Assembly: GCA_028280785.1 (NCBI GenBank)
Contig: JANQLF010000212.1
Location: 1-64,000 of the forward strand
Reading direction: 5' to 3'
Length of the DNA: 64,000 bases
From: Planctomycetota bacterium
GTDB taxonomy: Bacteria; Planctomycetota; UBA11346
Shown: one piece after another, positions 3,363 to 33,520 of the stretch
How the letters are laid out: each line of letters starts with the position of its first letter
Position numbering within the stretch: the stretch's first letter is position 1
Notes under the pieces: model-generated
Databases searched by the model: none
What the model saw: the letters and a program-made list of their open reading frames with translations, nothing else
Told to the model about the DNA's origin: nothing
Made by a program: the position numbers and the translations under genes

Positions 3363-5306
3363 TTACGGCTGGGGTATAATGAAGCGGAAACCAACGTCAT
3401 CATAAGCCTTGTCTTCACGTGCCGTGCGTGCTGCACTACGACAACGATCCGCACCCAATTTCCATGATCCGCCTCTGGTCACATATTTTTTAGGGGTAAT
3501 TGCTGAAGATGATTTACCAGGACTAACTCGGCCATCCCATTCAGTGCTACACCATTCTTCAACATTGCCATGCATATTATAAAGTCCCCAGGCATTACGC
3601 TCGTAATAGGCCATACCAATTTCAGCAGCAGACCAATTTACAGAAATTTCATCATCCATATACCAACTTTTACCAAATCCAGCCGTTCCACTAAATTTAT
3701 CAATTTGATCGGAACTAAATGGTGGTGTACCTTTATAATTCGCAAAATATTTAGAGGGGTCTATTCCTGTTTTCTGTGAATTACCATAAGCCTTATTAAT
3801 AACCTCAAAATATTTCTTAATATATGCATTGGTTGTCATTGAATGTCCTTTGGGTACCTGACTTTTAGCATAAGAAGACAAGTCAATACCGGGTACAGAT
3901 GGACCTGTTGCGTTGAGAGCCGTGCCGAGGGTCCAAAATGGAGTGGGTGCATAAATATTTAATACTGGATACGTTCGGTCAGCACCGCTTGCTGTGCCAT
4001 TCGCTTCTCTCACCGTGAAGTTACTCGCAGTTCTATCAGTAATGCGAATCATTTCTCTATATTCCAATTGCTTACCATTATGCTCGTCCTTATTCGCAAC
4101 TAAGTCAACTAAATTAGTAGCAACATAATCAAGTGGATTATTATACTCGCCTTGATCTATTAAATCTAAATAACGATAATACATGTTTGCAGCAGAGGGA
4201 TTGCCATACGGACGTGGATAAAACTTAGTTCCATCTGAATAATATAACATCAATATCGGTGTGTACTCACCATAGGTATCGAGCACATAACGATGTTGAT
4301 AACGACTATCGAATGCGACCAATTTCGATCCTATAACCGCCGAACCAGTAAGCGTTAATTGACCGCGGATATCAGAGCCCATCGTTCCCCACACCGCTGT
4401 TTTATCGGCATTGACATAATTGATACCAACTTTCCACGGACTAGTGTAACCATAGTCTGCATCGCCAGGTTGAGCTGCAGGATTATAATTCGCATCACCC
4501 GCCCACATATCATCAATATTGATACCATTAAAATTTGGGAAAAGCATTTTACTTGCCGTCACCTCAATGTCACCAACGGTGGTTTGAGTCGAATTCAATC
4601 CATTTAAAAGTCGGCCAGAATTAAATGCCGTTGCAGTGCCAGCACGACACAAATATTCCCATTCTTTTTCGGTCGGTAAACGTGCATTATTTCCTAAAGA
4701 AGTGAGGAATGCCTTTACTCTGGTCAATGTTTGTAATTCAACTGGACGTTTGGTCATATCACCGCCAAAAAATGCGACTGTTGTATCCTTATTAGCATCA
4801 GCCTGTCCGTAGCCTGCCTGATCAAATGGAATACGTTCAGTTAACACAACACCGGTTACCGCTTCCCATAATTTCTGTGAGCATTCTTGTGCGGCAACCC
4901 ACATCGCTCTATTTCCGTTTATATCTGACAACGGTACGCGAATTTGTGGCTTCTCACTTGGCAAGGCTCCTTGTTCGTCTATTGGCGCACCCATATAGAA
5001 TGCGCAACCAATGCCACCCTTACCATAATCAGGTTCCGTTGGAACAATGTAACGCATTTCCACCACAACAATTGACCCATCAGCATGCGGAACTTCTAAA
5101 TTAGCCCACCAACCATACGAATCACTGCCATAGTCATAATCGCTATGATCATCACTACCACCAGCAGGTGTTTTATCTGCCACTGCAGCATCAGCACCGC
5201 TACTTACACCAACCCATCCAGGCCAAGAAGGCTCCGTAGGCAGGGTGGCTGCAGATAATAATCCGGTGCAAATAATACATAAACAAAAAAGATATAAATG
5301 TCTCAT
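3363..5306 (-). CDS. Secreted SUMF1/FGE-sulfatase-domain protein, cassette 1
   Basis: A signal peptide (MRHLYLFCLC..., cleaved after about residue 19) is followed by a long formylglycine-generating-enzyme-like (SUMF1) fold. Landmarks are RLPTEKEWEYLCRAGT, GLYNMHGNVEEWC, RGGSW and DDVGFRF near the C-terminus. True aerobic FGEs use a Cys pair in this last region (LCxxxxC). Here the corresponding stretch reads GGSWKLGADRCRS, so the first Cys is missing and oxidase activity is not expected; a structural or ligand-binding role is more likely. The gene starts 15 nt after the GspK-like gene, with a GGAAG ribosome site, and is the sixth gene of the cassette. Cassette 2 has an equivalent at 24963-26546. 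Confidence 0.85.
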   Translation of the reverse strand: MRHLYLFCLCIICTGLLSAATLPTEPSWPGWVGVSSGADAAVADKTPAGGSDDHSDYDYGSDSYGWWANLEVPHADGSIVVVEMRYIVPTEPDYGKGGIGCAFYMGAPIDEQGALPSEKPQIRVPLSDINGNRAMWVAAQECSQKLWEAVTGVVLTERIPFDQAGYGQADANKDTTVAFFGGDMTKRPVELQTLTRVKAFLTSLGNNARLPTEKEWEYLCRAGTATAFNSGRLLNGLNSTQTTVGDIEVTASKMLFPNFNGINIDDMWAGDANYNPAAQPGDADYGYTSPWKVGINYVNADKTAVWGTMGSDIRGQLTLTGSAVIGSKLVAFDSRYQHRYVLDTYGEYTPILMLYYSDGTKFYPRPYGNPSAANMYYRYLDLIDQGEYNNPLDYVATNLVDLVANKDEHNGKQLEYREMIRITDRTASNFTVREANGTASGADRTYPVLNIYAPTPFWTLGTALNATGPSVPGIDLSSYAKSQVPKGHSMTTNAYIKKYFEVINKAYGNSQKTGIDPSKYFANYKGTPPFSSDQIDKFSGTAGFGKSWYMDDEISVNWSAAEIGMAYYERNAWGLYNMHGNVEEWCSTEWDGRVSPGKSSSAITPKKYVTRGGSWKLGADRCRSAARTAREDKAYDDVGFRFIIPQP

Positions 5307-5321
5307 GACATATCTTCCTTA

Positions 5322-7958
5322 CTATTGTTTAAATTTTGATGCCTCTATGCGATCATCAGTTTGTATGATCACATGATTATCAGAGAAATCGCCATCATTA
5401 TTGGGATCTATGCGATAAACAAAATAACGGTCAGCGACCGCTAGAGGCCGTTTATTCATAATATCATAAACCTCGCCACGAATAAAACCATTCATGAGCG
5501 TACTCTTACCAATGTAAAAACGACCGGTCTTAGCGAATGGTTTAATCGGATAGGTGGTATTGCCAGTTAGCCAAATATTATTCCAATCAAAAAAGTTACC
5601 GGTGCTGGTTATTTCTTCCCAACGGTCACCGCTTAGTTTTCGTTTCACTTTTCCACCTTCAAAACGATACCAGCCAGCTTTTTTCATATAGTCCTCAGAA
5701 CCATCTGAAGCCAAACGCACGTAGGGACCCAAACCATCCCACCACCATGACCAGACGCGCTGGTTATTATTATAATCCCACCAACCACTAACAGTGCTCT
5801 CAGCATGGCCATCGCCATTAAAATCAACTGCTATATTGGCGTAATCCTTTGAACCGACTACATAATCCGGATTCGCCTTCCCAAATAAACTAATCATGAA
5901 ATCATTAAGCACATATTCCATTGCTCGCGTATTGGCACCCGGCTCCAGTTCAGAATAGATTTCCCAATCACCACTGCCTGAACCAAATGATCCGCGACCA
6001 ACAAATGTACCCCCACCTGCAAGTAAAGTCCTACCATTTGGATCATAAACAGCATCACGACTATAGCTGCCCTGCGAAACTGCAGGATTGCTGCCACTTA
6101 TTTCACCTTCACCTAATATACGATAGACTTCACGTATAATCATTTGCATCATTTCATCTTCACTTGTTGACGCAGAAACTGGTTTAATATGTGAATTATT
6201 TTTACCACCACGATAACGCCATGCGCCCCAAGGTCCGGCATTTTCTTCATCCCCAGTAATTAAATTCTTTTCTTCGTCCCATAAAACTCGTGCGTCATCA
6301 ATTGCTGAATGCAAAGCAACCATAATATCGTGAACATAGGAGAGCCGCGTGCCTATTGTTGGAAATTCCTTATGATATAAATTCGGGTTTAACGAATGTC
6401 TTTTCACTTGACCGTTGCCATACCAATATGTTTCCGTACCTATTGGCCGACTTGCATTAGCCCCTATACCACTAACCGGAACATTACGACCTGAATCTAA
6501 TGCCAAGGGAAATGCCTCAGGATAGTCACGGCCGAATAAATCGGACGGGTGAATCCTTGCTTTATGTGCATTCGCAGCACTTTCCATATTTCCTTTAGTC
6601 ATGGTGTAATTTGAGTTATGCCATGTGGTAATCGTTTTCAGATGACTATGCAGGCCAAAAACCGCTGCACGTAAATTGGTATTTGGAGCGGATAATAAAT
6701 TAATTTTCCAAGGGGTTGACACGGGATCAGCATCAGCAGCGGCACCGTCATATAAGGTTTCGTCTAGCATACCAAGACCCCAGGGAGTCAGGAAAAAATT
6801 ATTTGCATAGATACTACCCTTTTTATAGACGGTGCGTAGATGAGACCAGGTCTGTACCCTACCTTTAAGGCCGGGAGATAAGGGGGCGAAATTTCCGCCG
6901 TAACGTGTACTCCAGGTTAAATCGCCATCACGAAATGCGCGCTCAACAAGTAGACGCCAATCGTCACGCATTGCCTGATTACCAGTCTTTATCGCAGATT
7001 TTGCTAAGCCATCACCGCCGACCTCGACATTAGTAGCCACCGACTCGTCATCGAGTGGATCAAAGCTATGACTTGCTCGATATTGTTTTCCGCCGCTAAC
7101 AGCAGCCCGCATACTTTTAATGCTACGACCATAGGTTTTTAAATAATTTTGATAGCGAATGTAATGCGCACTATCAGTTGATGCTGAGCCACGATTAATT
7201 GAATCAGTCCCTAATTCATGAGGAAAGTTATTATTAATCGTATGCAAACCACTGAGATCTAGCGCCTGCGCTGTATAACGGAGCACATATCTAGATGAGC
7301 GACGAATATCAGCTTTTTCTACAGGTGTTTTTGAATCATCAATTTCAACGGTTTTAAATTCAGCGTCCAAATATTCGATATTATGCCAGCGTGACCAATA
7401 TTGGTTTTTCCCATTAAACCGTTTGGTATGACCAAAGAGCAAGGTAAACATGTCAACAGTACCCAACATATCTGCATCTATGAGATCATAGAGGCGAGTA
7501 TTACTGTTTACTATTGGACTACTCGAAACCATCGTGGTACTTGGCATACCAGTAGAACTAGCCGGAACAGACAACGCTTGTCCCTGCATCGGGTCACCGT
7601 TTGGAAAATCGACTGTATCAGTAAATGGATTGCCATCAGGATCAGTCACTGGTTCAAATTCCCGACGCCATTGCTGATTGGCAAGGCTAGTATAATTAAG
7701 CGGATCATCATCTGTTTTGCGAGTGGGTTTCGCTGCAGAATCATTAAAACAACGAATGAGATGGGCCTGCGCTTGCTGCACTGCGATTTCTGCCTTGACC
7801 TGTGCCGCAACACCTATCGTCGAATTATATTGACGACCGACAAGTTCTAAAAAAGTAATCGCAATAGTGGTTAAAAGCACCAATAGAGAAATAACCATGA
7901 TGAGCGCAGAACCATGACGCTGATTAGTTAAATTGTTACACATAATATCGTTCATCAT
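5322..7958 (-). CDS. GspK-like giant minor pseudopilin, cassette 1
   Basis: It has a short basic leader ending QRHG, then SALIMVISLLVLL..., a prepilin-type hydrophobic helix without Glu at +5, as in GspK and PilX. The predicted cleavage is after Gly16. It has about 878 residues against roughly 320 for T2SS GspK. The large outer part contains acidic, Ca-binding-looking segments (DFNGDGHAE, DPNNDGDFSD). I recall similar long proteins as the Verru_Chthon cassette protein A family (TIGR02600), but I could not test this. The start is the ATG with AAGG upstream; the longer frame begins at TTG. In T2SS, GspK caps the pseudopilus tip; the same role here is inference. Confidence 0.8.
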   Translation of the reverse strand: MMNDIMCNNLTNQRHGSALIMVISLLVLLTTIAITFLELVGRQYNSTIGVAAQVKAEIAVQQAQAHLIRCFNDSAAKPTRKTDDDPLNYTSLANQQWRREFEPVTDPDGNPFTDTVDFPNGDPMQGQALSVPASSTGMPSTTMVSSSPIVNSNTRLYDLIDADMLGTVDMFTLLFGHTKRFNGKNQYWSRWHNIEYLDAEFKTVEIDDSKTPVEKADIRRSSRYVLRYTAQALDLSGLHTINNNFPHELGTDSINRGSASTDSAHYIRYQNYLKTYGRSIKSMRAAVSGGKQYRASHSFDPLDDESVATNVEVGGDGLAKSAIKTGNQAMRDDWRLLVERAFRDGDLTWSTRYGGNFAPLSPGLKGRVQTWSHLRTVYKKGSIYANNFFLTPWGLGMLDETLYDGAAADADPVSTPWKINLLSAPNTNLRAAVFGLHSHLKTITTWHNSNYTMTKGNMESAANAHKARIHPSDLFGRDYPEAFPLALDSGRNVPVSGIGANASRPIGTETYWYGNGQVKRHSLNPNLYHKEFPTIGTRLSYVHDIMVALHSAIDDARVLWDEEKNLITGDEENAGPWGAWRYRGGKNNSHIKPVSASTSEDEMMQMIIREVYRILGEGEISGSNPAVSQGSYSRDAVYDPNGRTLLAGGGTFVGRGSFGSGSGDWEIYSELEPGANTRAMEYVLNDFMISLFGKANPDYVVGSKDYANIAVDFNGDGHAESTVSGWWDYNNNQRVWSWWWDGLGPYVRLASDGSEDYMKKAGWYRFEGGKVKRKLSGDRWEEITSTGNFFDWNNIWLTGNTTYPIKPFAKTGRFYIGKSTLMNGFIRGEVYDIMNKRPLAVADRYFVYRIDPNNDGDFSDNHVIIQTDDRIEASKFKQ

Positions 7959-7979
7959 CTTGCCTTTGTGCTGTCTCAA

Positions 7980-9353
7980 TTACTGTGCAACCTGGATGCC
8001 TTGCACATAATAAATACAGCTATAACCAAATTTCAGCGCATAGCGTTCAAATGCCGCTATTTCATCAGTTCGTGTTGCTAACGAATCATTCAAAACTTTA
8101 TCTCTAATAGCTGCACTTAACAATTCTTGCGTATCACCATTATCATTGAAATCTTCTTCATCTTTAATTTCATTACTGATAGCATGCAACAAGAAAGAAA
8201 CGCGAACTCCAATTGGCCTGTTCTCGTATCCATCACCCGTGGCTGGATGAAGCCCTGAAAAATCCAAGCTTTTATTGCCATCGGATAGTCGATCTGTTTC
8301 ATCTCCACTTTCCAAAACTTCGCCGTCACGACCAATCAGTTCTAATTGCATATATTCAACGCCATCAAATAACGGCATCATTTGACTTGGATAAAGTTGG
8401 TGCTCTTCGCCATCTGAATCGGTAAACGTATCTGTCGCACCTACTAAATTAAGACGATCTTTATTAACCGAATTACCATCAGCATTTCTTACCGCATACG
8501 CATCATTTTGACCATCATCAGGCATATTATCATCTGCTACATCTGGATCACTTAATTGTATTTCATTACCAGTACAAATGGTGGTATACAGGTGGCGATA
8601 ATCAAAAGGTGCATTTTCCCAAACTTGTGGCACCGCAGGTACGCCCCAACCAGTTTTCTTACCAAGAAATAATCTATTCCTTGCATTTTGATATATCGCT
8701 ACTTTTTCAGTTGCAGCAGCAATACAATCTCCATCAGAACCGACTGTATTAATATTACCTTTCCCTTCAAAAAAGTCATAATGTTGCTGAACCATCGGCG
8801 TGATGGCATTGGCATGGACACCAGTTGACGGTCTCGTTGAGAACTTCGGCGTCCATAAATACTCTTCTGTATTAGCATGCCAATCCGTGCCATTATTACC
8901 TAGGCGATAGAGCGTTAATTCATTTACACGCGATAAGCCTCGATCTAAAGAGCCGTCTCCCCAGCGATAACGAATCCATACCGTATCGCACATGCGATGT
9001 TTAGTGAAAAAACGTGATTCAAATGGATTGGTTCCAGGTTTAAGGGCGTCTTTTCTGAAAACACCCGGATGCAGATCCGTAACCTGGCGCATAAAGGTAA
9101 TCGTATATGGTTTATCTTCAGTCTGTAGATGCACGGCAGCCACTGGCAACATGGCTCTAAAATCGCGCTCTAACTGACGCTGAATAGTATCAGCACGTGT
9201 ATGCAAATTTAAAATTTGCAAAGCTTTTTCGCTAGCATTCGATAAACGGGCAAAGGCTACCGTTACCAAGCCCATAAGGCTGACAAATAAGGTAGTTGCG
9301 ACCATAAGTTCCACAATTGTGAAGGCGGAAGCATTTGTTTTATTAGCCATCAT
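7980..9353 (-). CDS. GspJ-like pseudopilin, cassette 1
   Basis: A class III prepilin signal, NASA/FTIVELMVATTLF, has Ala at -1 and Glu at +5. It is followed by a helical stalk (about 20-75) with a GspJ-like ...QRQLERDFRAM segment and a large C-terminal domain. It has 457 residues against about 200 for GspJ. It probably belongs to the Verru_Chthon cassette protein C type (from memory). The ATG overlaps the preceding gene's TGA (ATGATG), with AAGGGG upstream, indicating coupling. It is paralogous to the protein at 29416-30771, sharing layout and the acidic loops toward the C-terminus. Confidence 0.8.
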   Translation of the reverse strand: MMANKTNASAFTIVELMVATTLFVSLMGLVTVAFARLSNASEKALQILNLHTRADTIQRQLERDFRAMLPVAAVHLQTEDKPYTITFMRQVTDLHPGVFRKDALKPGTNPFESRFFTKHRMCDTVWIRYRWGDGSLDRGLSRVNELTLYRLGNNGTDWHANTEEYLWTPKFSTRPSTGVHANAITPMVQQHYDFFEGKGNINTVGSDGDCIAAATEKVAIYQNARNRLFLGKKTGWGVPAVPQVWENAPFDYRHLYTTICTGNEIQLSDPDVADDNMPDDGQNDAYAVRNADGNSVNKDRLNLVGATDTFTDSDGEEHQLYPSQMMPLFDGVEYMQLELIGRDGEVLESGDETDRLSDGNKSLDFSGLHPATGDGYENRPIGVRVSFLLHAISNEIKDEEDFNDNGDTQELLSAAIRDKVLNDSLATRTDEIAAFERYALKFGYSCIYYVQGIQVAQ

Positions 9354-9790
9354 TTATACCCCTTGGGTAATATTTGATGGCAGAATATTTGATGGACGAG
9401 AAGGCCGTCAGTATCGTCACCGCCTGAGTAGACCTCCACCTTAACTTCCACGTATGTTCCAGCGTCATTATCTAATGTAACTGACTTGCTCGTATCGATG
9501 GTGCGAACGATGAAATAATTGTTCGCCCAACCCTTTGCCTCAGCATCACTATTTGAAAGATCCAAAGGATTGCGTTTTTTATCCATTAAAATGCCAGCAT
9601 CGGCCAAGGCTGCACGACCAGTTTTCAATGCGGTTAAATTAACCCGTATTTCTTCAGTCCATGACAATGCCAACATATAAACTGACACGACCGCAGTTAG
9701 GCCTATTGATAAAATGCCAATAGCTAGAGCAATTTCCAATAAGGTAAATGCACCCCGTTGTTGAGCCCGATGAAACTTGGAACGGCGCAT
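9350..9790 (-). CDS. GspI-like pseudopilin, cassette 1
   Basis: This 146-residue protein has a basic leader, cleavage motif RGA/FTLLEIALAIGIL with Glu at +5, a hydrophobic helix and a small beta-rich head (YVEVKVEVYSGG). Its size and the ...RAALADA... stalk fit GspI, and also the Verru_Chthon cassette protein B description as I recall it. The start codon directly follows the TAA of the GspH-like gene, and its stop overlaps the next ATG, so the five pseudopilin genes form one tightly coupled operon. Confidence 0.8.
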   Translation of the reverse strand: MRRSKFHRAQQRGAFTLLEIALAIGILSIGLTAVVSVYMLALSWTEEIRVNLTALKTGRAALADAGILMDKKRNPLDLSNSDAEAKGWANNYFIVRTIDTSKSVTLDNDAGTYVEVKVEVYSGGDDTDGLLVHQIFCHQILPKGYK

Positions 9791-11170
9791 TTATTTGATC
9801 CCTCTTGGATACGGGTCGCGCTGTAAGAGGTCATCAGCAGTAATTTGCAATTCCTCATGATCATTGGTGCGCACTTCAGATAAACCATCTACTTTATTGA
9901 GATGCACGCGCACAAATGGGGTAATTGATTCAAAGGCATCTTCAACTGAATTAAATTTATTATAGGCCTTCTGCCCTGTCATAATTGTACTGGCCTCGGA
10001 ATAAAGTTCATCTTCAGCATCAATGTCTGGGGCTAAAGTGATTGCAACTGCACTAGTGCGATTATCAAATTCCATACCCATATACGCACGACCTGCCTGA
10101 CTCGAAATACGATCTCTTGAAACCGTAATACGATTAAAATACAGCGCTCGCGCATGACCCTTAGCAACACTCACCGAACCATCTGGGCCAAATATAATCA
10201 TAAAATCAGACCAATAGCCATTGACAACTGGTCGTACTTTTTTTGCTAAATAGGTTCTATCAGGACCAACATAATCTCTAGCAACCTTATAACGCTTGCT
10301 AATTGATTTATCTCGCGTGCCTATATTTGATGTTGAAGGCGGCTCCACACACTCACCTGGATAAACACCTGTCGATCCAATTAGGGTATTTCCGCTAAAA
10401 TCCCAATAATGCCAAATGCGACCCCACACTTCATCAGGATTAAGATTGGTGTCTTGGTCAACATTATAGGTAACAGGACCATCATAGCCTTGGTAATCTA
10501 AACCAGTACCCGGCTCTCTGCCTGCACTCACCCAGTCAGCATCAATTTCAGGGTTATATGCGCCCCAAGGATATAAAATATTCGTTGTATTATCGTAGTA
10601 ACCAAACCACGGACGCGGATAAGTCTCGTGGACTTTACCTGGATATAATTCATTGGTATCGCTCAATGCTAAAAAACGCACACCGCGCGATAAGTAACGA
10701 CGTGCACCGATTTGCACTTTTTCCATTGCTTCAGTGTAATCCTCTAATGCGAAGTAAGAATACGTATCTCGATCGTTAGTGGCCACCAAGGCAACCGGCG
10801 GTAAATTCTCCTTTCGCAAGGTTCCTCCACCGTAGGACTGTGCATTGAATTGCGATTCGTCTGGGCCAATTAAGGCATACCAATGACGCCCGATAAAACT
10901 TTCGTCATCTAAATCTTTAACCGATTGATTTTTGAAAACGGTACCATCTCCAGCATTTTCGATATGAAAAACAACGCCATAAGAACGATTCGTACCCATA
11001 GCTAAATTACGTGCCTTGAGCAAAGTAGCCTGTAATTCATGGGCATCTGCAAGAATTAAATCCTCTTGGGACTCAGAATAGGTCACTACCATCATGGTTG
11101 ACAACAAAGCAATGATACTAATCACCACCAACAATTCTATTAAGGTAAAGGCTTTAAATGAATTACTCAT
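9791..11170 (-). CDS. GspH-like pseudopilin with large head domain, cassette 1
   Basis: The prepilin signal is FKA/FTLIELLVVISIIALLS (Ala at -1, Glu at +5). The stalk contains ELQATLLKARNLAMGTNRS, typical of GspH, and FIGRHWYALIGP is shared with the cassette 2 copy at 31189-32601. It has about 459 residues, over twice GspH. The ATG overlaps the stop of the upstream gene (ATGAGTAA) and has GAGG seven bases upstream; a TTG four codons earlier is less likely. It resembles Verru_Chthon cassette protein D by recall. A minor-pseudopilin role in priming assembly would follow the T2SS model. Confidence 0.8.
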   Translation of the reverse strand: MSNSFKAFTLIELLVVISIIALLSTMMVVTYSESQEDLILADAHELQATLLKARNLAMGTNRSYGVVFHIENAGDGTVFKNQSVKDLDDESFIGRHWYALIGPDESQFNAQSYGGGTLRKENLPPVALVATNDRDTYSYFALEDYTEAMEKVQIGARRYLSRGVRFLALSDTNELYPGKVHETYPRPWFGYYDNTTNILYPWGAYNPEIDADWVSAGREPGTGLDYQGYDGPVTYNVDQDTNLNPDEVWGRIWHYWDFSGNTLIGSTGVYPGECVEPPSTSNIGTRDKSISKRYKVARDYVGPDRTYLAKKVRPVVNGYWSDFMIIFGPDGSVSVAKGHARALYFNRITVSRDRISSQAGRAYMGMEFDNRTSAVAITLAPDIDAEDELYSEASTIMTGQKAYNKFNSVEDAFESITPFVRVHLNKVDGLSEVRTNDHEELQITADDLLQRDPYPRGIK

Positions 11171-12344
11171 TATAATCCTCAATCAATAATACATTGTCAT
11201 CGTTTTCAGATTCTGGTGGCAAGCAGTTGAATTCACCATCGCCACCTGCACTACCGAGGAAAAAACTAGCCGCGCGACCAGGAATAGAATTATAGAGAAT
11301 ATTCCCCCAATCATCGCGGTCTACTTTACCATCTTTATTATGGTCTATAAGATCTTTATCATCTAATTTTTGATCACGATTAACGTCGGTCAAATCTTCA
11401 TGCGGTGGCTCGGTGACCCAATCTTCATTGTTGATACTACCATCTCTATTGCGATCGGTAATCGGCACTCGACCACCAAGTGGCTTGATAAATGAGCGCT
11501 CGTAAGCGCCTGAAAAAAAGCGCTTCTCGCCAATAGCTGGTGTTGAATGAGCAACATAGATCAAGGGATTTTCCCATGCATCGACGATAGTTTGATCATC
11601 AATGAATTTACTATCAAGGTCATCCAAATCTAAACAGGGGTGAGTCATATAACGACGACGTACTAAATCACTTTCGAGCATGCCTTTATAAATCATATAT
11701 TGCAATTTATAATACCCACGACCTGAAAATAAGTGGGAATTCGCCCAATCGTACCAAAAATAATCGCCCTTTAACCCTTTTTTAAAAGAAGCTGGCTCTT
11801 CCCAACGAATAGTTAATTTATAATAATAGGTGTCGAGATAGTTCTTAGCAGACATACCCTTTTCGCTTGCAATCCAGGATTCTATTTTTGCTAAGGCTGC
11901 ATCTAATTTTGCATGTGCTGTATTACGCGTTGTCGCAGATTTTAAGTTATGATGTTTCTTGAAATAATCACCAGTTTGATAAGGGTTCCATTCCAGGCTC
12001 ACCTTTTGCGCCTCATCAGTCATAAAAATCTTTTCTGCTTGGCTCATTTTATGGGTTAGGCGCCAAACCAATTGCTGCTTATCCCATGATCCAGTATTGG
12101 TATCTGGATACCAAGAACCACTTTCTGGATCGCTAGAGCTACCAGTTGGCAAAGGCACCGCACCGGTTTCAGCCTCAAAGCGATCGAGGGCCACGCGTAG
12201 TGCACTCAACAGGACCTTGGTCTCATTTCGGTCGACACTACTTTGGCCAATGTTGATGAATGGCAGGATGAGTGCCGACAAAACCATGATGATAGCGATG
12301 ACCACCAGCAGCTCGATCAGGGTAAAAGCAGATCTACTTAACAT
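11163..12344 (-). CDS. GspG-like major pseudopilin with three EF-hand-like loops, first gene of cassette 1
   Basis: The signal MLSRSA/FTLIELLVVIAIIM (Ala -1, Glu +5) heads a 393-residue protein; GspG is about 145. The GspG-like stalk and ENPLIYV segment are followed by three calcium-loop motifs: DRNRDGSINNED (297-308), DVNRDQKLDDKD (320-331) and DHNKDGKVDRDD (334-345). Classical GspG needs one Ca ion in its C-terminal loop. Here the Ca sites look elaborated into dockerin/EF-hand-like repeats. It is the promoter-proximal gene of the cassette, facing the GntR-type regulator gene across a 541 bp intergenic region. Confidence 0.82.
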   Translation of the reverse strand: MLSRSAFTLIELLVVIAIIMVLSALILPFINIGQSSVDRNETKVLLSALRVALDRFEAETGAVPLPTGSSSDPESGSWYPDTNTGSWDKQQLVWRLTHKMSQAEKIFMTDEAQKVSLEWNPYQTGDYFKKHHNLKSATTRNTAHAKLDAALAKIESWIASEKGMSAKNYLDTYYYKLTIRWEEPASFKKGLKGDYFWYDWANSHLFSGRGYYKLQYMIYKGMLESDLVRRRYMTHPCLDLDDLDSKFIDDQTIVDAWENPLIYVAHSTPAIGEKRFFSGAYERSFIKPLGGRVPITDRNRDGSINNEDWVTEPPHEDLTDVNRDQKLDDKDLIDHNKDGKVDRDDWGNILYNSIPGRAASFFLGSAGGDGEFNCLPPESENDDNVLLIEDYNE

Positions 12345-13950: not shown

Positions 13951-13971
13951 TAACAGTAGTATTTGAACACC

Positions 13972-22754: not shown

Positions 22755-22764
22755 AAACGTGGCA

Positions 22765-23882: not shown

Positions 23883-23896
23883 GTGGTATATACCAC
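23883..23896. promoter_or_regulatory. Candidate operator GTGGTATATACCAC (site 3)
   Basis: A perfect 14 bp palindrome containing the same 12 bp core, one base before the ATG of regulator 2. Occupancy would block ribosome access or transcription start, consistent with autorepression, and could also affect the divergent SGNH hydrolase gene. Confidence 0.72.
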
Positions 23897-23897
23897 T

Positions 23898-24962: not shown

Positions 24963-26546
24963 TTATTCGTAGATAATAACGCGCATACCTACCGTGTCTG
25001 AATAACAGCGATCGTCAGGTTGTGTCCCATCAACAGTGCCATCGGCGTTCAAGCGTGGATAACTGACGACGCTATCATGTTTAAGCAATTTACCGCGTGC
25101 CGATGCACGACATTGCGAGCCACCACTCATCCATGAACCACCCTTAACTGGATGATATTTCATTTTCCAAGCAGCTCCGCCACTCATGTCTACAAAATAA
25201 TCAGCAGCACCAGTCGCTGAATACGATTCATCATGTGGTGAAGCTCCGTCCCAAACATCGCGAACAATTTCTGCGACATTGCCATGCATGTGATAAAGAC
25301 CCCAGTGATTTTGCGTTGAACCGTTTACAATTTTCCCACCACTGAGATCGCCAGGGGCAATTGGATGATTCGGCTCGTGATTCGCATAACCGCGAATATA
25401 ATGGGCGACGTTATCTATATCATCAGGATCCAACGGGGTACTTGGTCGCCACGTTGGTAAATTATAACTAAAGGTATATCTAAAATCAAAAATAGCATGA
25501 AAGCTATTTGCCGGTGCCTGCTTATTTCTGCCAATGCGTAATTCAACACCAGCTACCGGCGCGAAACCAAAATAAAACAACATGGGGTCGAATAAATGCA
25601 TGCCGTAAGCAAACGGTAAATCCTGCTGCGACATACCGCGTTCCGCTGCTGCGCTGTTGGTACTCGGCACTGCACGGTCCGGAATACGACAAGCATATTC
25701 CCATTCTGCTTCCGTCGGTAATTCACAATTACCAGCAACACCAGCTTGTGCGTTGACTTGATCAATGAAATCGCGCGCATTGCCAGTCGTTATAAATGCA
25801 ACGGGATTATCAGAAGCCGCATTCCACAGATAATTTGCATAACCGTCATTAACTGGCGCGGCAGGCCAATGCGGAGGCTGTGCACCCATTAAAGCATTCC
25901 ACTGCACCTGCGATACTTCATTTTGTAACATCCAATACGAACGCGATAAAGTGACAGTTAATGGACGTAATGGAATTCCTGAAACCGGACCAGCATTTGG
26001 ATGCGAGGAATAGTTCGGCACATCTGCATTTAATTCACCACGTGGCGCTTCACCCATAAAAAATTCAAGCGCATCTAAATGAAATTCATAAGCACGGACG
26101 CCCGAAATAATGGACTCAACACCATCGGTTAACATATACTGCGGACGGGGTCGCTTGTAATATAATTCATAAACCTGCCAACCATAGGTAGAACGCCAAA
26201 TATTTTGCCCTTCAGGGTGGTATTCATAAGCATAATCTCCATCCCAACCGCCATTTTTTTGACCGCGTGTTGCCCGAGGCTCTGCACCCAAACGCGGTAT
26301 ATTCGTACGCAGGCTATATTGTACGCGCGTGCCTAAGTCGACCTGACCGCTGGTGGCTGCATCTGCAATATCGATATACCAAAAATACCAGGTCTGACCG
26401 CCCCAATTGGCCTCACATTGATAGCGATTGGTGCCGTTAATATTAACGGTTGTCACGGTTCCAGTTGACCATGCCGGCGGTAATGGCGCTGCTGCGCTTA
26501 AGATACCACAGCTGATCAGTAATAATAATATCATTAATAATCGCAT
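24963..26546 (-). CDS. Secreted SUMF1/FGE-sulfatase-domain protein, cassette 2
   Basis: A signal peptide (MRLLMILLLLISCGILSAAA) precedes a SUMF1 fold with LPTEAEWEYACR, LYHMHGNVAEI, KGGSW and DTVGMRVIIYE. As in the cassette 1 copy, only one Cys (GGSQCRAS) stands where true formylglycine-generating enzymes have a pair, so catalytic conversion of sulfatases is unlikely. The ACGGAG ribosome site overlaps the end of the GspK-like gene, two bases from this ATG. It is the last gene of cassette 2. Confidence 0.85.
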   Translation of the reverse strand: MRLLMILLLLISCGILSAAAPLPPAWSTGTVTTVNINGTNRYQCEANWGGQTWYFWYIDIADAATSGQVDLGTRVQYSLRTNIPRLGAEPRATRGQKNGGWDGDYAYEYHPEGQNIWRSTYGWQVYELYYKRPRPQYMLTDGVESIISGVRAYEFHLDALEFFMGEAPRGELNADVPNYSSHPNAGPVSGIPLRPLTVTLSRSYWMLQNEVSQVQWNALMGAQPPHWPAAPVNDGYANYLWNAASDNPVAFITTGNARDFIDQVNAQAGVAGNCELPTEAEWEYACRIPDRAVPSTNSAAAERGMSQQDLPFAYGMHLFDPMLFYFGFAPVAGVELRIGRNKQAPANSFHAIFDFRYTFSYNLPTWRPSTPLDPDDIDNVAHYIRGYANHEPNHPIAPGDLSGGKIVNGSTQNHWGLYHMHGNVAEIVRDVWDGASPHDESYSATGAADYFVDMSGGAAWKMKYHPVKGGSWMSGGSQCRASARGKLLKHDSVVSYPRLNADGTVDGTQPDDRCYSDTVGMRVIIYE

Positions 26547-26548
26547 TA

Positions 26549-29416
26549 TTACTCCGTGAAATTATCTTCGCTGTAAAAGAGTTGATAATTGCGAATTGGA
26601 CGCTGCATAATTACATGAGAATCACTGAGGTCGGTATCTTCAATGGCATACGTTGTAGGATCATCACTTGGGTTTGGTGCATAGGACATATCCAACATAA
26701 CTTCGCTGGTCTTTTTATTGCGCACCGTATCCCAAACCTGACCGCGAATAAAGCAACGATAAGCCTGACTTTTACCCATGTAGAAACGACCAGTGACTGT
26801 AAACCCATAGTCACGCGATGAATCCTGACCTTCGTCTAATTCCATCCAATCAACATGCGCCGTGCGTAATTTGGTAAACGTTGCATTGCCTGAAGTAAGC
26901 GGTGTTTTGGTGCCACTCCCATTGCGATAACCCGGACCATAACGATCGTTGCTTGGATTTTTCTGACCGCCGCGTGTGGCTGCGTTGGTCATCCAGGTCA
27001 CCAAACTATCGCCACCATCATTCCAACCATTGGTCGAACTTTCGGCAAAGGCATCGAAATTAAAATCAATGGCTGGGCTGCCAAAGAAACTCATGCGTAC
27101 ATCGTTGAGCAAACGCTCCATACCAGCCGTATTCTGATGGGTACGAATGCGCGCATTTTCTGCTGAACCAGTGTCATAACTAAATCGCTGATTCGATTGT
27201 GGCACGGGCAGAACATGATCGGTTTTAATACGATCGTCTTGAACGGCTCCACTATTTTGATATTCGACAAAACGACCAGATAAGGTACGTGGCAAAGCAC
27301 GCCATGTTTTAGGATCTTGTCGGTCGTAAGGCTGACCGCCGCCACGTGCATTACCGGCATTAGTATTTATTTGCTCACCTAAAATGCGTAAAAATAATTG
27401 CTCAACATCATGAACCGTTGCTAATTCATGTTTGGATTCATCTTCAATATCACTAACACTCGAAGTAGCCGAACCAGTGCGCAACCAAGCAAAATCATCC
27501 CACTCTTGTTTTAATTCTTCTAAGGTTGGATCTTGCGTATTGTCAGCCCATGCTGGATCGCTGCTACGCAACTTGGTATGCGACTTGCCATTCCACGCAC
27601 GTTTAGCTGTATACACTGCAGCCATTAATGCTTCCATCACGTCATGCTCATATGTATTAGCGACATTTAAATCAAAGGTATTGCGTCGAGTAAAGCGTTG
27701 CGCTGTGCGCACGTCATAAGGTAGTCCTGGTCCATGATTCTGATAGCCGCTTAAAAAACTATTTTCAATATGGCTACGTGGACCCAATTGGCGACCTTCA
27801 TTATAATCCAAACCATAAAACCATTGATACATACTGCCCGTTCGCTCATACCATGCATCCAATGTTGAATTGACTGGTGCATTTGCGGTATTCGCAAAGG
27901 TGACGTGCTGATTAAAATCTAAATTATCATCATACATATCGGCTGCTGCAGGGTCACTACTAAATGGCATTAATGGATCACCAATTGCAAATGGGAATAA
28001 TTGAGTGCCTGGGCCATCAAAGGCGTCTTGACCCGTCCAATCCTGCGGCCTGATATACTTCAATCGGCACATCGATCCTTTAATCATATTTTCAAGGGTT
28101 TTATTGGTGGCGGTTAACAAGTTTACGCGAAATGGCGCATCACAATCATCACCATTGGCAACCAACAATCCCGTATCAAATAAATTATACGAGTGCGGCA
28201 TATAAAACATACCATCTAAGTTATCATAAAAACCTAAAAAGGTCGAAGCAAAGGCTTGATAAGAATAATAAGGACCAGGAATAACCTGCGCCTTAAAGGT
28301 AATCGCATTGCCATCACCTGACCATAAATGTCCATGGCCTTGGAATAAATCATGGGTTTGATAAGCATGACACGTATTTAATTTCCAGGTATCAAAGCGT
28401 AAATTCACACCTGATAAATTTTGCACACGATAATCATATTCGACACTGATGGGATCAGTGTGCGATTGTGGTGCATTGACTTGCTGTAACCAGTTTACCT
28501 CAACTTTAAATGGATCATCTTCGATGCGAAATGGTTCCAGATGATGGCGATAATTACGCGCGTAGGGATCAACACTCCACATATTTTGATTTGCGCGAGA
28601 TAAAATATTATAGGTATAACGATTAAATCGCCACATGCCCTCCTTGGCATATACGGTTGCGAGCGCCGAACCATAGCGTTCACGCAATGCACGAAATTTA
28701 CGCCGCAAAGCCAATGCTTCAGCATTTGACATCGATGAAAAATCCACGGACTCTTCCGGATAAAAATTAAAACCCATAAATCCACTCAGATCCAGCAATT
28801 CAACCGCGTAGCGAACAATATAACGGCCATCAGCTTCTGTGCTTGGTTGCCCTTCATTGTCCAACCATCCAATTTCATGCCAACGTGCTCCGGCATTCGA
28901 ACCAAGCGTATCGGTCATTTTAATTGATTTAGAAGTCTTGGTGTCGGTTTTTAAACCGAGGATTTGCAACATACCATCAGACAGTCGATCACTCCAGTTA
29001 TAGGCACCTTCAACCGGTCCGTAGGTTCGATAGTCCTCTGATCTATTAGGCACATTTTTTTCAGGTAATTGCCATGTTGCTGAACCCATCGTTGCATTAG
29101 CGTCCGGCCACTCGCCACCTGGCTCAAGCGTTTTGTCGCGACGAAATTCCGTCCGCCAACTTGACTGAAAAGTCGAATAAAAATCTGGATCATCAGGGTC
29201 GTCTACCAAAGCTGCACGCTGCAAGGTATGCATGACTTTTATTTGGCCATTGCGCATCGCTATTTCAGCATGGGTATTAAATACATCACTGATCGCTGCG
29301 TTGCGATACTTACTCATACTGCGTATGTAAACGGTTAACAAAAAACTTAAGAATACGACCAGCGAAATACTGACCAATAATACACTACCACAACGCGTTT
29401 TGAGAAATTGATCCAT
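26549..29416 (-). CDS. GspK-like giant minor pseudopilin, cassette 2
   Basis: The leader MDQFLKTRCG precedes SVLLVSISLVVFLSFLL; predicted cleavage is after Gly10 and there is no Glu at +5, as in GspK. It has about 955 residues. Shared blocks with the cassette 1 protein include an acidic DFNFDAFAES...NGW segment matching DFNGDGHAES...SGW, GRFYMGKS, and the ending that runs into ...SHVIMQ. The ATG overlaps the preceding TGA by one base (TGATG), so translation is coupled. It is the Verru_Chthon cassette protein A type by recall. Confidence 0.8.
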   Translation of the reverse strand: MDQFLKTRCGSVLLVSISLVVFLSFLLTVYIRSMSKYRNAAISDVFNTHAEIAMRNGQIKVMHTLQRAALVDDPDDPDFYSTFQSSWRTEFRRDKTLEPGGEWPDANATMGSATWQLPEKNVPNRSEDYRTYGPVEGAYNWSDRLSDGMLQILGLKTDTKTSKSIKMTDTLGSNAGARWHEIGWLDNEGQPSTEADGRYIVRYAVELLDLSGFMGFNFYPEESVDFSSMSNAEALALRRKFRALRERYGSALATVYAKEGMWRFNRYTYNILSRANQNMWSVDPYARNYRHHLEPFRIEDDPFKVEVNWLQQVNAPQSHTDPISVEYDYRVQNLSGVNLRFDTWKLNTCHAYQTHDLFQGHGHLWSGDGNAITFKAQVIPGPYYSYQAFASTFLGFYDNLDGMFYMPHSYNLFDTGLLVANGDDCDAPFRVNLLTATNKTLENMIKGSMCRLKYIRPQDWTGQDAFDGPGTQLFPFAIGDPLMPFSSDPAAADMYDDNLDFNQHVTFANTANAPVNSTLDAWYERTGSMYQWFYGLDYNEGRQLGPRSHIENSFLSGYQNHGPGLPYDVRTAQRFTRRNTFDLNVANTYEHDVMEALMAAVYTAKRAWNGKSHTKLRSSDPAWADNTQDPTLEELKQEWDDFAWLRTGSATSSVSDIEDESKHELATVHDVEQLFLRILGEQINTNAGNARGGGQPYDRQDPKTWRALPRTLSGRFVEYQNSGAVQDDRIKTDHVLPVPQSNQRFSYDTGSAENARIRTHQNTAGMERLLNDVRMSFFGSPAIDFNFDAFAESSTNGWNDGGDSLVTWMTNAATRGGQKNPSNDRYGPGYRNGSGTKTPLTSGNATFTKLRTAHVDWMELDEGQDSSRDYGFTVTGRFYMGKSQAYRCFIRGQVWDTVRNKKTSEVMLDMSYAPNPSDDPTTYAIEDTDLSDSHVIMQRPIRNYQLFYSEDNFTE

Positions 29417-30771
29417 CAATACACCGCCACAGCCTGATGTACTTCGATAGCCGTACCACCACCAGCTTCGATCATGCGCTTAAAGGTCGACATCGTTTGG
29501 TCAGCCGGCAACAAGGTATCGTAAAAAAGATGGCGCAAATAATGTATGCTCGAATGGTCTTCAACAAAATCAGAATCAGATGGGTTTTCTTTATACGGTC
29601 GCGTTGGATCTACCAACATATCGTGCATGATAAAACTCACGCGTAAAATACGCGGACGTCGGCCGAGCGAGTGGTCTGCTTCGCCATCACTGGTGCTACG
29701 CGGACCACTCGACATGCCTGGCTTGTAATGACCAGGCGTCATGCGCAGACCATCTATTTCTTCATCAACAGCAACAGCACCACGTTCTAATATAGTGCCG
29801 TCACGCAATTCAACGCGCAGCGTAAACATTTCCACACCACTAGCGACCGTTGCTAACTGTGATGGATAATACGGATTATCTTCGTCACCAGGGACACCCA
29901 ATAAATCCAAGCGATTTTTATGGTAGAAAACCGGCATGCCAGGATGCACTTCATCAGGGCTATTAGGCCATGGTAATGCCGCAGCATGTGCATTGGCAAT
30001 TGGCCCATTGTTACCTTGGTAAAAATGATTTGGTTCTGCTGTATTATAAAACGGCAATAGATCTCGTTTTGGGTTACCAGTCCAAAACGCTCCAACATTA
30101 GCACCAAAATAACTGATCGTCGTTGCATTCCAGTTATAAATCCACGCACTACACTGAGCATCGGCAATCTGATTAGCACGATCATCCGCATCACCAAAAT
30201 TATCGAAATATTTATATTCACGCTGTGGGCAGACAGCCTTACCATTTAAATTCGCAGGTAGTGGGTCAGCAGTATTAAAAAAGTAGGAATTATCGCCCTT
30301 ACCAGCATGCTGCTTATTTTTAACCACACCCTCTAATTTAGCGCTCATTCCGCGGCGCAGGCCTTTATGCTCATCAAATTGCCAGCGCACCCACACTAAA
30401 TCATGGTACCACTGATCGGTTTTCTGTGAGGATACACGGTAATTACCACTACTCTGGCCTTTATCACTCATTTCATATGGGATGCCTGCCATATAGGTTA
30501 AATGCGTTAAAAATTCTGGATCACCGTTACCACTGATATGCACGTTTAAAGCACAGTGTGGTTGCATCCCAGAAAAATCTTCGCGTAACTTCTTAATTAA
30601 AGACGATGAGCGCAAATCCAATGCGGCCATAGTTAAACTTTTATCGGTCACTTCACTGATATTTAATTGGGTATAGGCAGCAATAGTGATCATTGCCACG
30701 GCAATGGTCATCGCCATCAGTACCTCAATTAAAGTAAAAGCACATTTATGGAGCACGAAAATAAGCTCCAT
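29416..30771 (-). CDS. GspJ-like pseudopilin, cassette 2
   Basis: The signal is HKCA/FTLIEVLMAMTIAVAM (Ala -1, Glu +5), with stalk ...SSSLIKKLREDFSGMQP as in GspJ, and a large C-terminal head. It has 451 residues. The ATG at 30771 overlaps the previous gene by 26 nt. An internal GTG at 30756, eight to nine bases after GGAG, would give a shorter leader much like MLSRSA of the GspG-like protein and is a serious alternative. It is paralogous to 7980-9353. Confidence 0.78.
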   Translation of the reverse strand: MELIFVLHKCAFTLIEVLMAMTIAVAMITIAAYTQLNISEVTDKSLTMAALDLRSSSLIKKLREDFSGMQPHCALNVHISGNGDPEFLTHLTYMAGIPYEMSDKGQSSGNYRVSSQKTDQWYHDLVWVRWQFDEHKGLRRGMSAKLEGVVKNKQHAGKGDNSYFFNTADPLPANLNGKAVCPQREYKYFDNFGDADDRANQIADAQCSAWIYNWNATTISYFGANVGAFWTGNPKRDLLPFYNTAEPNHFYQGNNGPIANAHAAALPWPNSPDEVHPGMPVFYHKNRLDLLGVPGDEDNPYYPSQLATVASGVEMFTLRVELRDGTILERGAVAVDEEIDGLRMTPGHYKPGMSSGPRSTSDGEADHSLGRRPRILRVSFIMHDMLVDPTRPYKENPSDSDFVEDHSSIHYLRHLFYDTLLPADQTMSTFKRMIEAGGGTAIEVHQAVAVY

Positions 30772-31192
30772 TTAATTCATACACTTTGGACCCCGATGTA
30801 ATATCAGATGCAACAACACCTTCATAAACTTCAACTTTGACATTGGCATAAAACCCAGGAAGCCCTGTTACATCGTGCGTCTGGGTCACGCGACCACCAC
30901 GTGAAGCACCCATCCATTTATCTTCTTCATAAACGGTTGCTTCACGCACTATGTATAAACCATTGACGTATCCTTCGACCACTTCATAGCCGGTTGGATT
31001 AGCGCTACTGTCTACTAATAAAGGATCATCTAATGCAGCACGTGCTGTATTAACAACACTGGTGCGTAAATGTACTTCGTGACCCCAATCAAGACCGACA
31101 AATAACAACGACAAGGCCGACGTAATGCCAACTACCAATACAAGGGTAGCTATCGCAACTTCAATAAAGGTAAATGCGCAACGATTCATCAT
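30746..31192 (-). CDS. GspI-like pseudopilin, cassette 2
   Basis: About 148 residues starting MMNRCA/FTFIEVAIATLVLVV (Ala -1, Glu +5). The stalk ...TARAALDDPLL and beta head (YANVKVEVYEG) match the GspI-like protein of cassette 1 (YVEVKVEVYSG). The ATG overlaps the TGA of the GspH-like gene as ATGATG; the longer frame would begin at GTG or ATG codons inside that gene. Confidence 0.78.
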   Translation of the reverse strand: MMNRCAFTFIEVAIATLVLVVGITSALSLLFVGLDWGHEVHLRTSVVNTARAALDDPLLVDSSANPTGYEVVEGYVNGLYIVREATVYEEDKWMGASRGGRVTQTHDVTGLPGFYANVKVEVYEGVVASDITSGSKVYELNGAYFRAP

Positions 31193-32601
31193 GGATAATC
31201 TGGAAACCATCCCCGCCATCCCTCAGGATCATCGGTCCAATCAGCATCTTGGAGCGAAGCGTTTATTTGATCAGCAAAATAAGAATGTCGGTAAGCAGGA
31301 CGATAGAGCACACCATCTATTGGAAATGTTTCACCAACATCAGTCGGTATCAAGCGGCGCTGATTCATTTTAGTAAGCGCCATAGGATGTTCACGGTCAC
31401 GTACTTCGGTAGCCGCTGAGAAATTATTCACGTAAACGCGATAATATGGCGTAATACTTTTCAATGCATCTTCTTCATTATCAAATACATCAACGCGGCC
31501 GGGTTCTGAATATATTTCTTCGCTTTCATCAACGTCTCTACATAAGGTGATATGAACCCCACCCGTCAGACGCGTTTGATGATGAATTCCGCTGTTTTTA
31601 AATGCCTCGTTAGCATCGTTTAAATTTACACCCTGCATTGAATTCCAGAAAAATGGATGGTGTAATAAATCTTTATCTTGATAAATAAAACCATTATCCT
31701 TGGTTAACATATCAAATGCTCGGCGCGCAGCAAAATGCTCAACAGGATAAGCACTGCCATCAGCTTGAAATAATATGCAAAAGTCGATTCGCTCACCGTC
31801 AACGAGTGGACCGTGCACTTCAACATTGGTTGTCTGCCCGTCTAAAGTACCGAAGGCTGTATGATTAGTCGCACTACGCGCGGTTTCCCATTCTGTGTCG
31901 CCACCACCCCATGGGTACAAAACAAAATTACCATTCGTAGGACGAATACTCGCCGGCACAGAACTCACTGGTTTTAATACACCGAACCATGGTTTAGGAA
32001 ATTCATCCAACAAATTAGAATCAGATGCAGTGGTTTTCCAAATGCGTGTATCGTGAATATTAAAACCGAAATCATAATCACCGAGTGCTAAAAAACGCAC
32101 ACCTTCGGGCAAGTAATGACGCGGTCCAACCTGGGAAATAGCGACATCATCTAAAAATTCATTATAGAGCGAATTATTATACCAACCACCCGTTCTAGGA
32201 TCAACCAACGGCGGCATATTTGGATTTTTGGTATACTGGCGCATGCCACCACCACCATCACCCCAGGTAATTGGTTGCGCGCCTTTATTAGGACCGACAA
32301 TCGCATACCAATGACGGCCGATAAATGTTTCTTCTTCGTTTAATCCGAAATTTTGCAAAACTCGCCCATCGCCATAATTTTCAATATGAAAAACAACAGC
32401 GTGAGCCATACCGCTTTGACGCGCGAGATTACGTGCTTTGGTCAGCGTCGCTTCCAATTGTAGAGCAGCAACTTTTACGCTATTATCTGCCGATTCGGTC
32501 TGCACAAAAATCATTGAGCCCAATAATGCCATGATAAAGAGCACGACGAGTAACTCTATTAAACTAAAGGCATGTTGTGGTGATCTCATAGCTTGACGCA
32601 T
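31189..32601 (-). CDS. GspH-like pseudopilin, cassette 2
   Basis: The signal is QHA/FSLIELLVVLFIMALLG (Ala -1, Glu +5), with stalk LEATLTKARNLARQSG, then VVFHIENYGDG and FIGRHWYAIVGP, nearly identical to cassette 1. It has 470 residues. The head domain is unrecognised outside the cassette family. The start lies 4 nt after the upstream stop; an ATG four codons downstream is possible. No clear Shine-Dalgarno is present, which suggests coupled translation. Confidence 0.8.
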   Translation of the reverse strand: MRQAMRSPQHAFSLIELLVVLFIMALLGSMIFVQTESADNSVKVAALQLEATLTKARNLARQSGMAHAVVFHIENYGDGRVLQNFGLNEEETFIGRHWYAIVGPNKGAQPITWGDGGGGMRQYTKNPNMPPLVDPRTGGWYNNSLYNEFLDDVAISQVGPRHYLPEGVRFLALGDYDFGFNIHDTRIWKTTASDSNLLDEFPKPWFGVLKPVSSVPASIRPTNGNFVLYPWGGGDTEWETARSATNHTAFGTLDGQTTNVEVHGPLVDGERIDFCILFQADGSAYPVEHFAARRAFDMLTKDNGFIYQDKDLLHHPFFWNSMQGVNLNDANEAFKNSGIHHQTRLTGGVHITLCRDVDESEEIYSEPGRVDVFDNEEDALKSITPYYRVYVNNFSAATEVRDREHPMALTKMNQRRLIPTDVGETFPIDGVLYRPAYRHSYFADQINASLQDADWTDDPEGWRGWFPDYP

Positions 32602-32605
32602 CGTA

Positions 32606-33337
32606 TTACTTATACGGCAAAACCGTAATGTTATCCTTGTTATCTAGTATCGACATGTCATGCAGGTGATACGTTGTATCATAAAATTGGTCCATTCCGG
32701 CACTCCATAATTCAGCCGCCTTTTGAAAACCACGTTGGCAGTACACCCGCACATCATAATTAAAATCACTGCCTGCGTACAAAGAGCGACCAGCCAAGTT
32801 ATACACGTAGATGAATGGCTGACCATAGGTCTCATTGACTATAAAATTATCGTATATCGGAATTGGCTGGGCAAAAACACTGGCCGAATCAAGTGTGGTC
32901 CAATCAATACCTGTATAATTCACGTATTCAGAACCAAGTTTTCCATACAAGTAATCATTAGGAAAACCCACGCTATGCTTGGCAAAATCACGCTCAGCTT
33001 TGGTCTTTGGCATCGCTGGTCGCGGATGATTCAAATTGTATCCGAGATTATTGGTGCCGTTAAACATAGGTGGATGGAATCCATATTCTGTGCGATATTC
33101 GCTAATTGCCTCAGAAATCATGAGCATGAGCTGTTCGCAGTTCTTCTCTTCAACCATGCTTTGTGAGCGCTGTACACCCGCCACCAGCAAGCTCGAAAGC
33201 AAACTGATAATAGTGATTACTATGAGGAGCTCGATAAGCGTGAATGCATCCCTATGCCAAACAGGGCTGACATACCTATTAAAACCCTGTTTGCATACAT
33301 GTTTAGTACAAGAATTTTGTAATTTAAGTTTATTCAT
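32606..33337 (-). CDS. GspG-like pseudopilin, first gene of cassette 2
   Basis: The motif WHRDA/FTLIELLIVITIISLLSSL (Ala -1, Glu +5) starts a GspG-like stalk (EKNCEQLMLMISEAISEYR) and a short head with a GQPFIYVYN segment. Unlike the cassette 1 counterpart it has no EF-hand-like loops. The leader before the cleavage site is long (about 30 residues from the ATG at 33337, or 47 from a GTG at 33388), so the start is uncertain. The 5' region up to 33520 shows neither regulator palindrome. Confidence 0.75.
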   Translation of the reverse strand: MNKLKLQNSCTKHVCKQGFNRYVSPVWHRDAFTLIELLIVITIISLLSSLLVAGVQRSQSMVEEKNCEQLMLMISEAISEYRTEYGFHPPMFNGTNNLGYNLNHPRPAMPKTKAERDFAKHSVGFPNDYLYGKLGSEYVNYTGIDWTTLDSASVFAQPIPIYDNFIVNETYGQPFIYVYNLAGRSLYAGSDFNYDVRVYCQRGFQKAAELWSAGMDQFYDTTYHLHDMSILDNKDNITVLPYK

Positions 33338-33520
33338 GTGCTTGCGGTGATTCGTCATTTGAGACGGAGGCTTTTTCAATCCGGACACGACTAAATTGGC
33401 ACAAAAACCAGTGGTTTTGCTAGTGTGTCATAAGGCAGCGCAGCAGAAGATTACACATCGAAACCATGCAATGCAGCATACAGGTATGAAATATATAGAA
33501 TCGAGATCGATTTCTTACAA

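Follow-up and report, generated by a model that had tools for sequence, protein, structure and literature searches.

The 64,000-nucleotide stretch analysed here (the window; positions 1 to 64,000 of the forward strand of contig JANQLF010000212.1, GenBank assembly GCA_028280785.1, Planctomycetota bacterium) carries two six-gene cassettes, in each of which five pseudopilin genes, in the order G-H-I-J-K, are followed by a gene for an exported protein with a sulfatase-modifying factor (SUMF1) or formylglycine-generating enzyme (FGE) domain, here called S. An earlier reading of the window from sequence alone (the sequence-only reading) had described these two sets. With H1 as query we found 14 H genes in the whole draft assembly (labelled G000; 5.68 Mb, 316 contigs, 89.7% complete), and reading of the loci revealed at least 14 cassettes in the same order, of which the window holds two. 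A pseudopilin or minor-pilin cassette with an exported partner is a known kind of element; the novelty here lies in which protein is the partner, in the protein sizes and in the number of copies. We read the cassettes as exchangeable pseudopilus (tip) sets, each with its own exported lectin-like partner and all served by a shared machine, an interpretation that we hold to be evenly balanced between right and wrong.

Both window cassettes lie on the minus strand (cassette 1, 3363-12344; cassette 2, 24963-33388) and are translated in the order G-H-I-J-K-S (Table 1). Gaps between their genes range from -31 to +15 bp, in keeping with the coupled starts already reported for them, and most gaps across all cassettes fall between -31 and +40 bp. 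Every G, H, I and J protein has a clear prepilin site, A|F[ST]xxE, and K has a GspK-like N terminus without Glu5. TIGR02532 scored above its cut-off in G1, H1, G2, H2 and J2, and PF07963 in G1, H1, G2 and H2. The last gene of each cassette scored above the cut-off of PF03781, the sole Pfam match of both S1 and S2, and each of the two proteins starts with a Sec-type leader as judged by eye. The six-gene sets are thus present as the sequence-only reading described them. Its statement that the proteins are two to three times as large as those of type II secretion systems (T2SS) is right for G, H, J and K and wrong for I: because I1 and I2 are of ordinary GspI size, oversizing is limited to the other four.

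Profile comparisons linked the cassette pseudopilins, at their N termini, to GspG, GspH, GspJ and a normal-size K/GspK set. The T2SS-like identity and order of the five genes are supported. No T2SS equivalog model scored over its cut-off against them (best, TIGR01710 with 36 of 89 bits and TIGR01708 with 38 of 80 bits, N-terminal only), nor did any type IV pilus (T4P) equivalog model. A C-terminal S-x-G-x-D stretch is invariant across the G family, which also has EF-hand-like loops; we take the two together to be the calcium-site signature of GspG, and a weak T2SSG match accompanies them. AlphaFold2 models of H1 (predicted template modelling score, pTM, 0.80) and K1 (pTM 0.77) each have a long N-terminal pilin helix, in agreement with the pilin-like stalks that had been expected from sequence. 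The added domains of these models had no significant match among solved folds, and a sequence search of the PDB gave no match for K and nothing convincing for I and J.

Verru_Chthon is a multi-gene prepilin cassette in the Planctomycetes-Verrucomicrobia-Chlamydiae group, and the sequence-only reading had proposed kinship with it. The cassettes do show weak N-terminal matches to its D and C models, but none of TIGR02596, TIGR02598, TIGR02599 and TIGR02600 reached its cut-off: H1 scored 28.8 of 70 bits with TIGR02596 and 16.6 of 256.5 bits with TIGR02599, and TIGR02598 and TIGR02600 gave no match. The S protein and the kinase family described below fall outside these models. We therefore rejected membership; no paper in the literature searched names Verru_Chthon.

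The S gene stands directly after K in all 14 cassettes, and this slot holds 14 of the 26 FGE-domain genes of the genome, so that S, already assigned to the cassette from the window, is a stable member of it here. Two cassettes are broken by contig ends, and the missing K-S halves begin or end contigs C128 and C243; the pairing of the split halves is inferred, and the 14 K-to-S junctions were read directly. Six cassettes (C142, C205, C236, C267, C57 and C261) have an extra small pseudopilin, G0, at the front. Mean pairwise identity among the paralogues is 44% for H and 32% for S. The distance matrices of five families are strongly correlated (Mantel r = 0.90-0.97, permutation p 2e-4 each), and the cassettes therefore diverged as units, with S retained throughout. 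As paralogues, they do not count as 14 independent events.

The S proteins carry the motif GGSWxxGADxCRSAAR, and the catalytic cysteine pair of the FGE loop GGSxxCxxxxCxRYR is absent in all 12 that were aligned; the intact FGE of the same genome, on contig C249, reads GGSFLCHHSYCNRYR. On account of this loss we rejected an active FGE as the role of S. The cysteine after EWEY and the one in CRSAAR are each conserved in 11 of 12 S proteins, and S1 has an insert of more than 300 residues inside its FGE domain. The best PDB match of the S profile was TvpA (2y3c), a variable lectin-fold protein, and PorK structures matched as well. The PF03781 domain is what S shares with such FGE-fold proteins (TvpA, PorK/GldK), from which it differs in the missing cysteine loop and in the position of its gene inside a pseudopilin operon; its likeness to TvpA, a variable protein of a diversity-generating retroelement, is at the level of the fold only. 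Because the catalytic loop is lost, S proteins probably bind rather than catalyse. Outside the cassettes, five loci (L146-L150, on contigs C249, C30, C186, C275 and C76) include the one intact FGE, that of C249, together with small FGE-like lipoproteins, several in number and secreted, that also lack the cysteine pair. In the literature searched we found no paper linking a formylglycine-generating or sulfatase-modifying factor with a pseudopilin or minor pilin.

The cassettes come without a machine. PF00437 and PF00482 (GspE and GspF) have no match on the window's contig, and its only secretin (PF00263) match lies at 117 kb, 84 kb from cassette 2. With no machine genes in or near them, the cassettes are thus sets of subunits. 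The sequence-only reading had noted this lack and inferred that the core machine is borrowed, and contig C22 has one complete canonical operon, in which GspG-H-I-J-K of normal size are joined by GspD, E and F. In this operon, as in the cassettes, some pseudopilins have Ala and others Gly in front of the cleavage site; we note that Ala, not Gly, precedes the site in most pseudopilins of the genome, those of C22 included. More PilB/GspE-, PilT- and PilC/GspF-like genes lie elsewhere in the genome, with PilB- and PilT-like ATPases together on contigs C227 and C255.

We surveyed relatives in 23 genomes of one GTDB family, covering 12 genera. They belong to Planctomycetota, which rules out Lentisphaerota as the host group. 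Six of these genomes, from three genera, have oversized H: 14 copies in G000, about 14 in G271, about 10 in G262 and one each in G040, G097 and G060. G040 has a full seven-gene order that includes SUMF1 and also begins with G0. Oversized cassettes with SUMF1 occur in only two of the three cassette-bearing genera, and the full order in a second genus (L051) answers the doubt, raised with the original description, that relatives might lack it. Its recurrence there, and 14 times in one genome, speaks for more than a chance arrangement. Among 392 planctomycete genomes, with two candidates scored per genome, oversized K turned up in this family alone. Normal-size G-H-I-J-K cassettes occur in other planctomycete families (G340, G126, G241 and G028), with no SUMF1 in the stretch read, and they bridge oversized H to GspH and oversized K to GspK. 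Most of those at L062, L063, L064 and L140 have an extra G, and the stretch read there contained no T2SS machine genes.

Regulators and kinases recur beside the cassettes. Eight of the 39 GntR domains of the genome lie at most 6 kb from a cassette, where 1.7 were expected (p = 3e-4), which bears out the regulator link suggested from the window. Proteins of a second family, KIN (kinase-transmembrane-LamG-like-TPR), lie at most 10 kb from a cassette in five of nine cases in G000 (0.5 expected) and flank cassette 1 on both sides; these enrichment figures rest on search hits rather than on a full annotation. In G271, 9 of 11 strong KIN homologues adjoin cassettes. In the genomes of the third cassette-bearing genus (g4), the one without SUMF1 beside K, KIN often follows K or stands upstream of the cassette, and most of the copies sampled there beside cassettes lack the canonical HRD/DFG kinase motifs. 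KIN is also abundant without pseudopilin neighbours in G221, G288 and G210, and we therefore regard it as a linked, not a defining, partner; a cassette-specific role was rejected, as in cassette-free genomes as many as 22 copies stand apart from pilins, and up to 22 copies per genome occur in this GTDB family. The cassette-linked transmembrane kinase or pseudokinase, the 14-fold expansion and the loss of the FGE active site are all absent from the sequence-only reading. Homologues of X434, the protein encoded 3' of S1, follow S in C6 and C118 and lie upstream of the cassette in C205 and C236. Between the two window cassettes (17110-24962) we observed genes for an 869-aa secreted protein without a family match, two SGNH hydrolases and a GH42-like/DUF4832 protein; together with the second regulator that has a GntR and a sugar-binding domain, this stretch looks like a carbohydrate locus.

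Table 1. Genes of the two window cassettes and their neighbours, with the evidence for each assignment.
Feature	Coordinates	Strand	Assignment	Basis
G1	11163..12344	-	GspG-like major pseudopilin, 393 aa; EF-hand-like calcium-loop motifs; C-terminal S-x-G-x-D	TIGR01710 E=5e-9, residues 6-64 only, under cut-off; PF07963 above cut-off; weak T2SSG match at 339-371; EF-hand matches; S365, G367 and D369 invariant in 10 paralogues
H1	9791..11182	-	GspH-like minor pseudopilin, 463 aa, oversized	TIGR01708 E=1.4e-9, N-terminal; hhalign to E. coli GspH E=5e-10, N-terminal 69 columns; AlphaFold2 pTM 0.80, N-terminal helices 14-31 and 39-64
I1	9350..9790	-	GspI/PilV-like minor pseudopilin, 146 aa, normal size	TIGR02532 15.4 bits, cut-off 16.3; family A3, found in 14/14 cassettes
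J1	7980..9353	-	GspJ-like minor pseudopilin, 457 aa, oversized	PRK08808 (T2SS J) E=0.0016, N-terminal; hhalign to E. coli GspJ E=1.5e-7, N-terminal
K1	5322..7979	-	GspK-position minor pseudopilin, 885 aa, no Glu5	AlphaFold2 pTM 0.77, long N-terminal helix 17-83; no PDB fold match; hhalign to normal-size K/GspK set E=1.1e-7, N-terminal
S1	3363..5306	-	secreted SUMF1/FGE-like protein, 647 aa, without catalytic cysteine loop	PF03781 E=2.7e-22; GGSWKLGADRCRSAAR where the intact FGE of the same genome has GGSFLCHHSYCNRYR
G2	32606..33388	-	GspG/ComGC-like pseudopilin, 260 aa; possibly with an internal true start	NF040999 E=1.2e-9; TIGR01710 E=9.5e-8; TIGR02532 above cut-off
H2	31189..32601	-	GspH-like, 470 aa	TIGR01708 E=2.6e-8; family A1
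I2	30746..31219	-	GspI/PilV-like, 157 aa	TIGR02523 E=4e-4; family A3
J2	29416..30771	-	GspJ-like, 451 aa	TIGR02532 above cut-off; family A5
K2	26549..29419	-	GspK-position pseudopilin, 956 aa	family A4; no library match
S2	24963..26546	-	secreted SUMF1/FGE-like, 527 aa, catalytic cysteines absent	PF03781 E=1.6e-17; motif GGSWMSGGSQCRASAR
X434	1984..3288	-	zinc-ribbon and transmembrane protein 3' of S1	sequence by eye
KIN	3..1991	-	KIN protein, cut at contig end, downstream of X434	KIN profile 547 bits; ectodomain match at C184:6-851
GntR regulator	12886..13950	+	GntR-type helix-turn-helix and sugar-binding (LacI-type) regulator, divergent from G1	PF00392 E=6e-13; PF13377 E=1.5e-10
KIN	13963..17109	+	KIN protein with intact Ser/Thr kinase motifs (HRDIK, VVDWG), transmembrane segment, LamG/DUF6250-like and TPR ectodomain	PF00069 E=3e-42; KIN profile 1198 bits
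GntR regulator	23883..24962	+	GntR-type helix-turn-helix regulator beside S2, resembling and paralogous to 12886-13950	PF00392 at C184:23949
GntR regulator	34904..36028	+	third GntR-type regulator, upstream of cassette 2	PF00392 at C184:34937

A precedent for this layout comes from Myxococcus xanthus, which has three clusters of four minor pilins plus PilY1 served by one machine and one major pilin (PMC7541494). In that species the tip bears PilY1 mounted on PilX, GspK/PilX is placed at the tip touching substrate or PilY1, PilY1 is likened to T2SS substrates, and tips of differing properties have been proposed (PMC7541494). Tips are proposed to be accessorised for one substrate or another by regulated switching of PilY1 (PMC9109919), pili-like fibres of planctomycetes bind dextran (PMC5394234), and pilins of modular build that carry ligand-binding domains occur widely (PMC8179133). 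It is because the cassettes match this picture that we favour exchangeable heads. Also in favour are genes for sulfatases and for GH9, beta-helix, SGNH and GH-like proteins, which adjoin roughly half of the cassettes, a raw count taken without a genome background. A shared T2SS (or T4P) platform would process and assemble the cassette pseudopilins, with H-I-J-K forming a priming or tip complex and G building the shaft, perhaps stabilised by calcium. S would bind the K end, either as a PilY1-like ligand displayed at the tip or as a dedicated cargo pushed out. Regulators of the GntR/LacI type that sense sugars may switch between copies and so present different binding heads for different polysaccharides, and the linked transmembrane kinase or pseudokinase could act as a sensor or scaffold.

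Several observations weigh against exchangeable heads. A cassette of this type can do without SUMF1, since in the g4 genomes the pseudopilin set is retained and no SUMF1 gene turned up beside K. Cassette C65 has no adjoining G gene. A PDB fold search with the K1 model returned no match, and in that with the H1 model GspH/FimU chains recurred, none of them significantly (E above 0.8). We infer, moreover, the contact between S and K, the formation of a filament and the machine that is used.

The main rival explanation, which we consider rather unlikely, is that the cassettes are dedicated secretion adaptors: each G-K set would form a substrate-specific pseudopilus of a shared T2SS, and S, perhaps with the neighbouring hydrolases, would be a soluble cargo that is released. 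The cassettes resemble GspG-K in gene order, prepilin N termini, the missing Glu5 of K, the GspG-like C terminus and the N-terminal profile matches, a core T2SS is present in the genome, T2SS substrates are proposed to encounter the tip of minor pseudopilins (PMC7541494), and S, as judged by eye, has a Sec leader only and no visible anchor. From the T2SS set they differ in that the G, H, J and K proteins are two to three times longer than their counterparts and reach no equivalog cut-off, GspC-F and GspL-M do not adjoin them, there are 14 copies, and SUMF1, often with a kinase, is their partner. Against the rival, fourteen sets with one cargo family each are unlike known T2SS, in which one pseudopilus serves many substrates, and the canonical operon already has a G-K set of its own.

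The same order also fits FimU-PilV-PilW-PilX followed by an adhesin (PMC7541494), and the cassettes could thus be minor-pilin or priming sets of retractile T4P, with SUMF1 in the PilY1 slot and a role in adhesion or twitching. In both, minor pilins of the H-I-J-K type precede a Sec-exported protein that is not a pilin, and several clusters occur with the machine elsewhere; the paired PilB- and PilT-like ATPases on C227 and C255 agree with this, as does the lack of a PF05567 (PilY1) match in the genome, although control genomes are silent too and the result is therefore weak. We nevertheless think such pili quite unlikely, as most cassettes own a GspG-like G, whereas minor-pilin clusters of type IVa pili share one major pilin, and as no T4P equivalog model reached its cut-off. 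Compared with such clusters, the cassettes are many more in number, and their partner has an FGE/C-type-lectin fold and not the beta-propeller of PilY1. Very unlikely, in our estimate, is an envelope-bound sensor complex, in which oversized pseudopilins would scaffold KIN and a SUMF1 receptor near the inner membrane without export of a filament. KIN stands beside many cassettes in two genera, and kinase motifs are lost in most g4 copies sampled, both consistent with such a complex; the many KIN genes that have no pseudopilin neighbours argue against it, and the GspG-like major subunit suggests polymerisation.

Exchangeable heads could be taken further, to an organelle specific to planctomycetes in which one machine would serve 14 sugar-regulated, calcium-binding, oversized heads, each with a dead-FGE, lectin-fold receptor for one polysaccharide and signalling through the linked transmembrane kinase or pseudokinase. 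Such an organelle, which could be the dextran-binding fibres, we regard as unlikely. The capture of large polysaccharides by pili-like fibres is an open question in planctomycetes (PMC5394234), to which the cassettes supply named genes. They would extend the idea of exchangeable tips, drawn from three PilY1 clusters of M. xanthus, to a far larger scale and a different, lectin-like tip protein: 14 co-evolving cassettes at separate loci, each with a dead-FGE partner and often with a sugar-sensing regulator.

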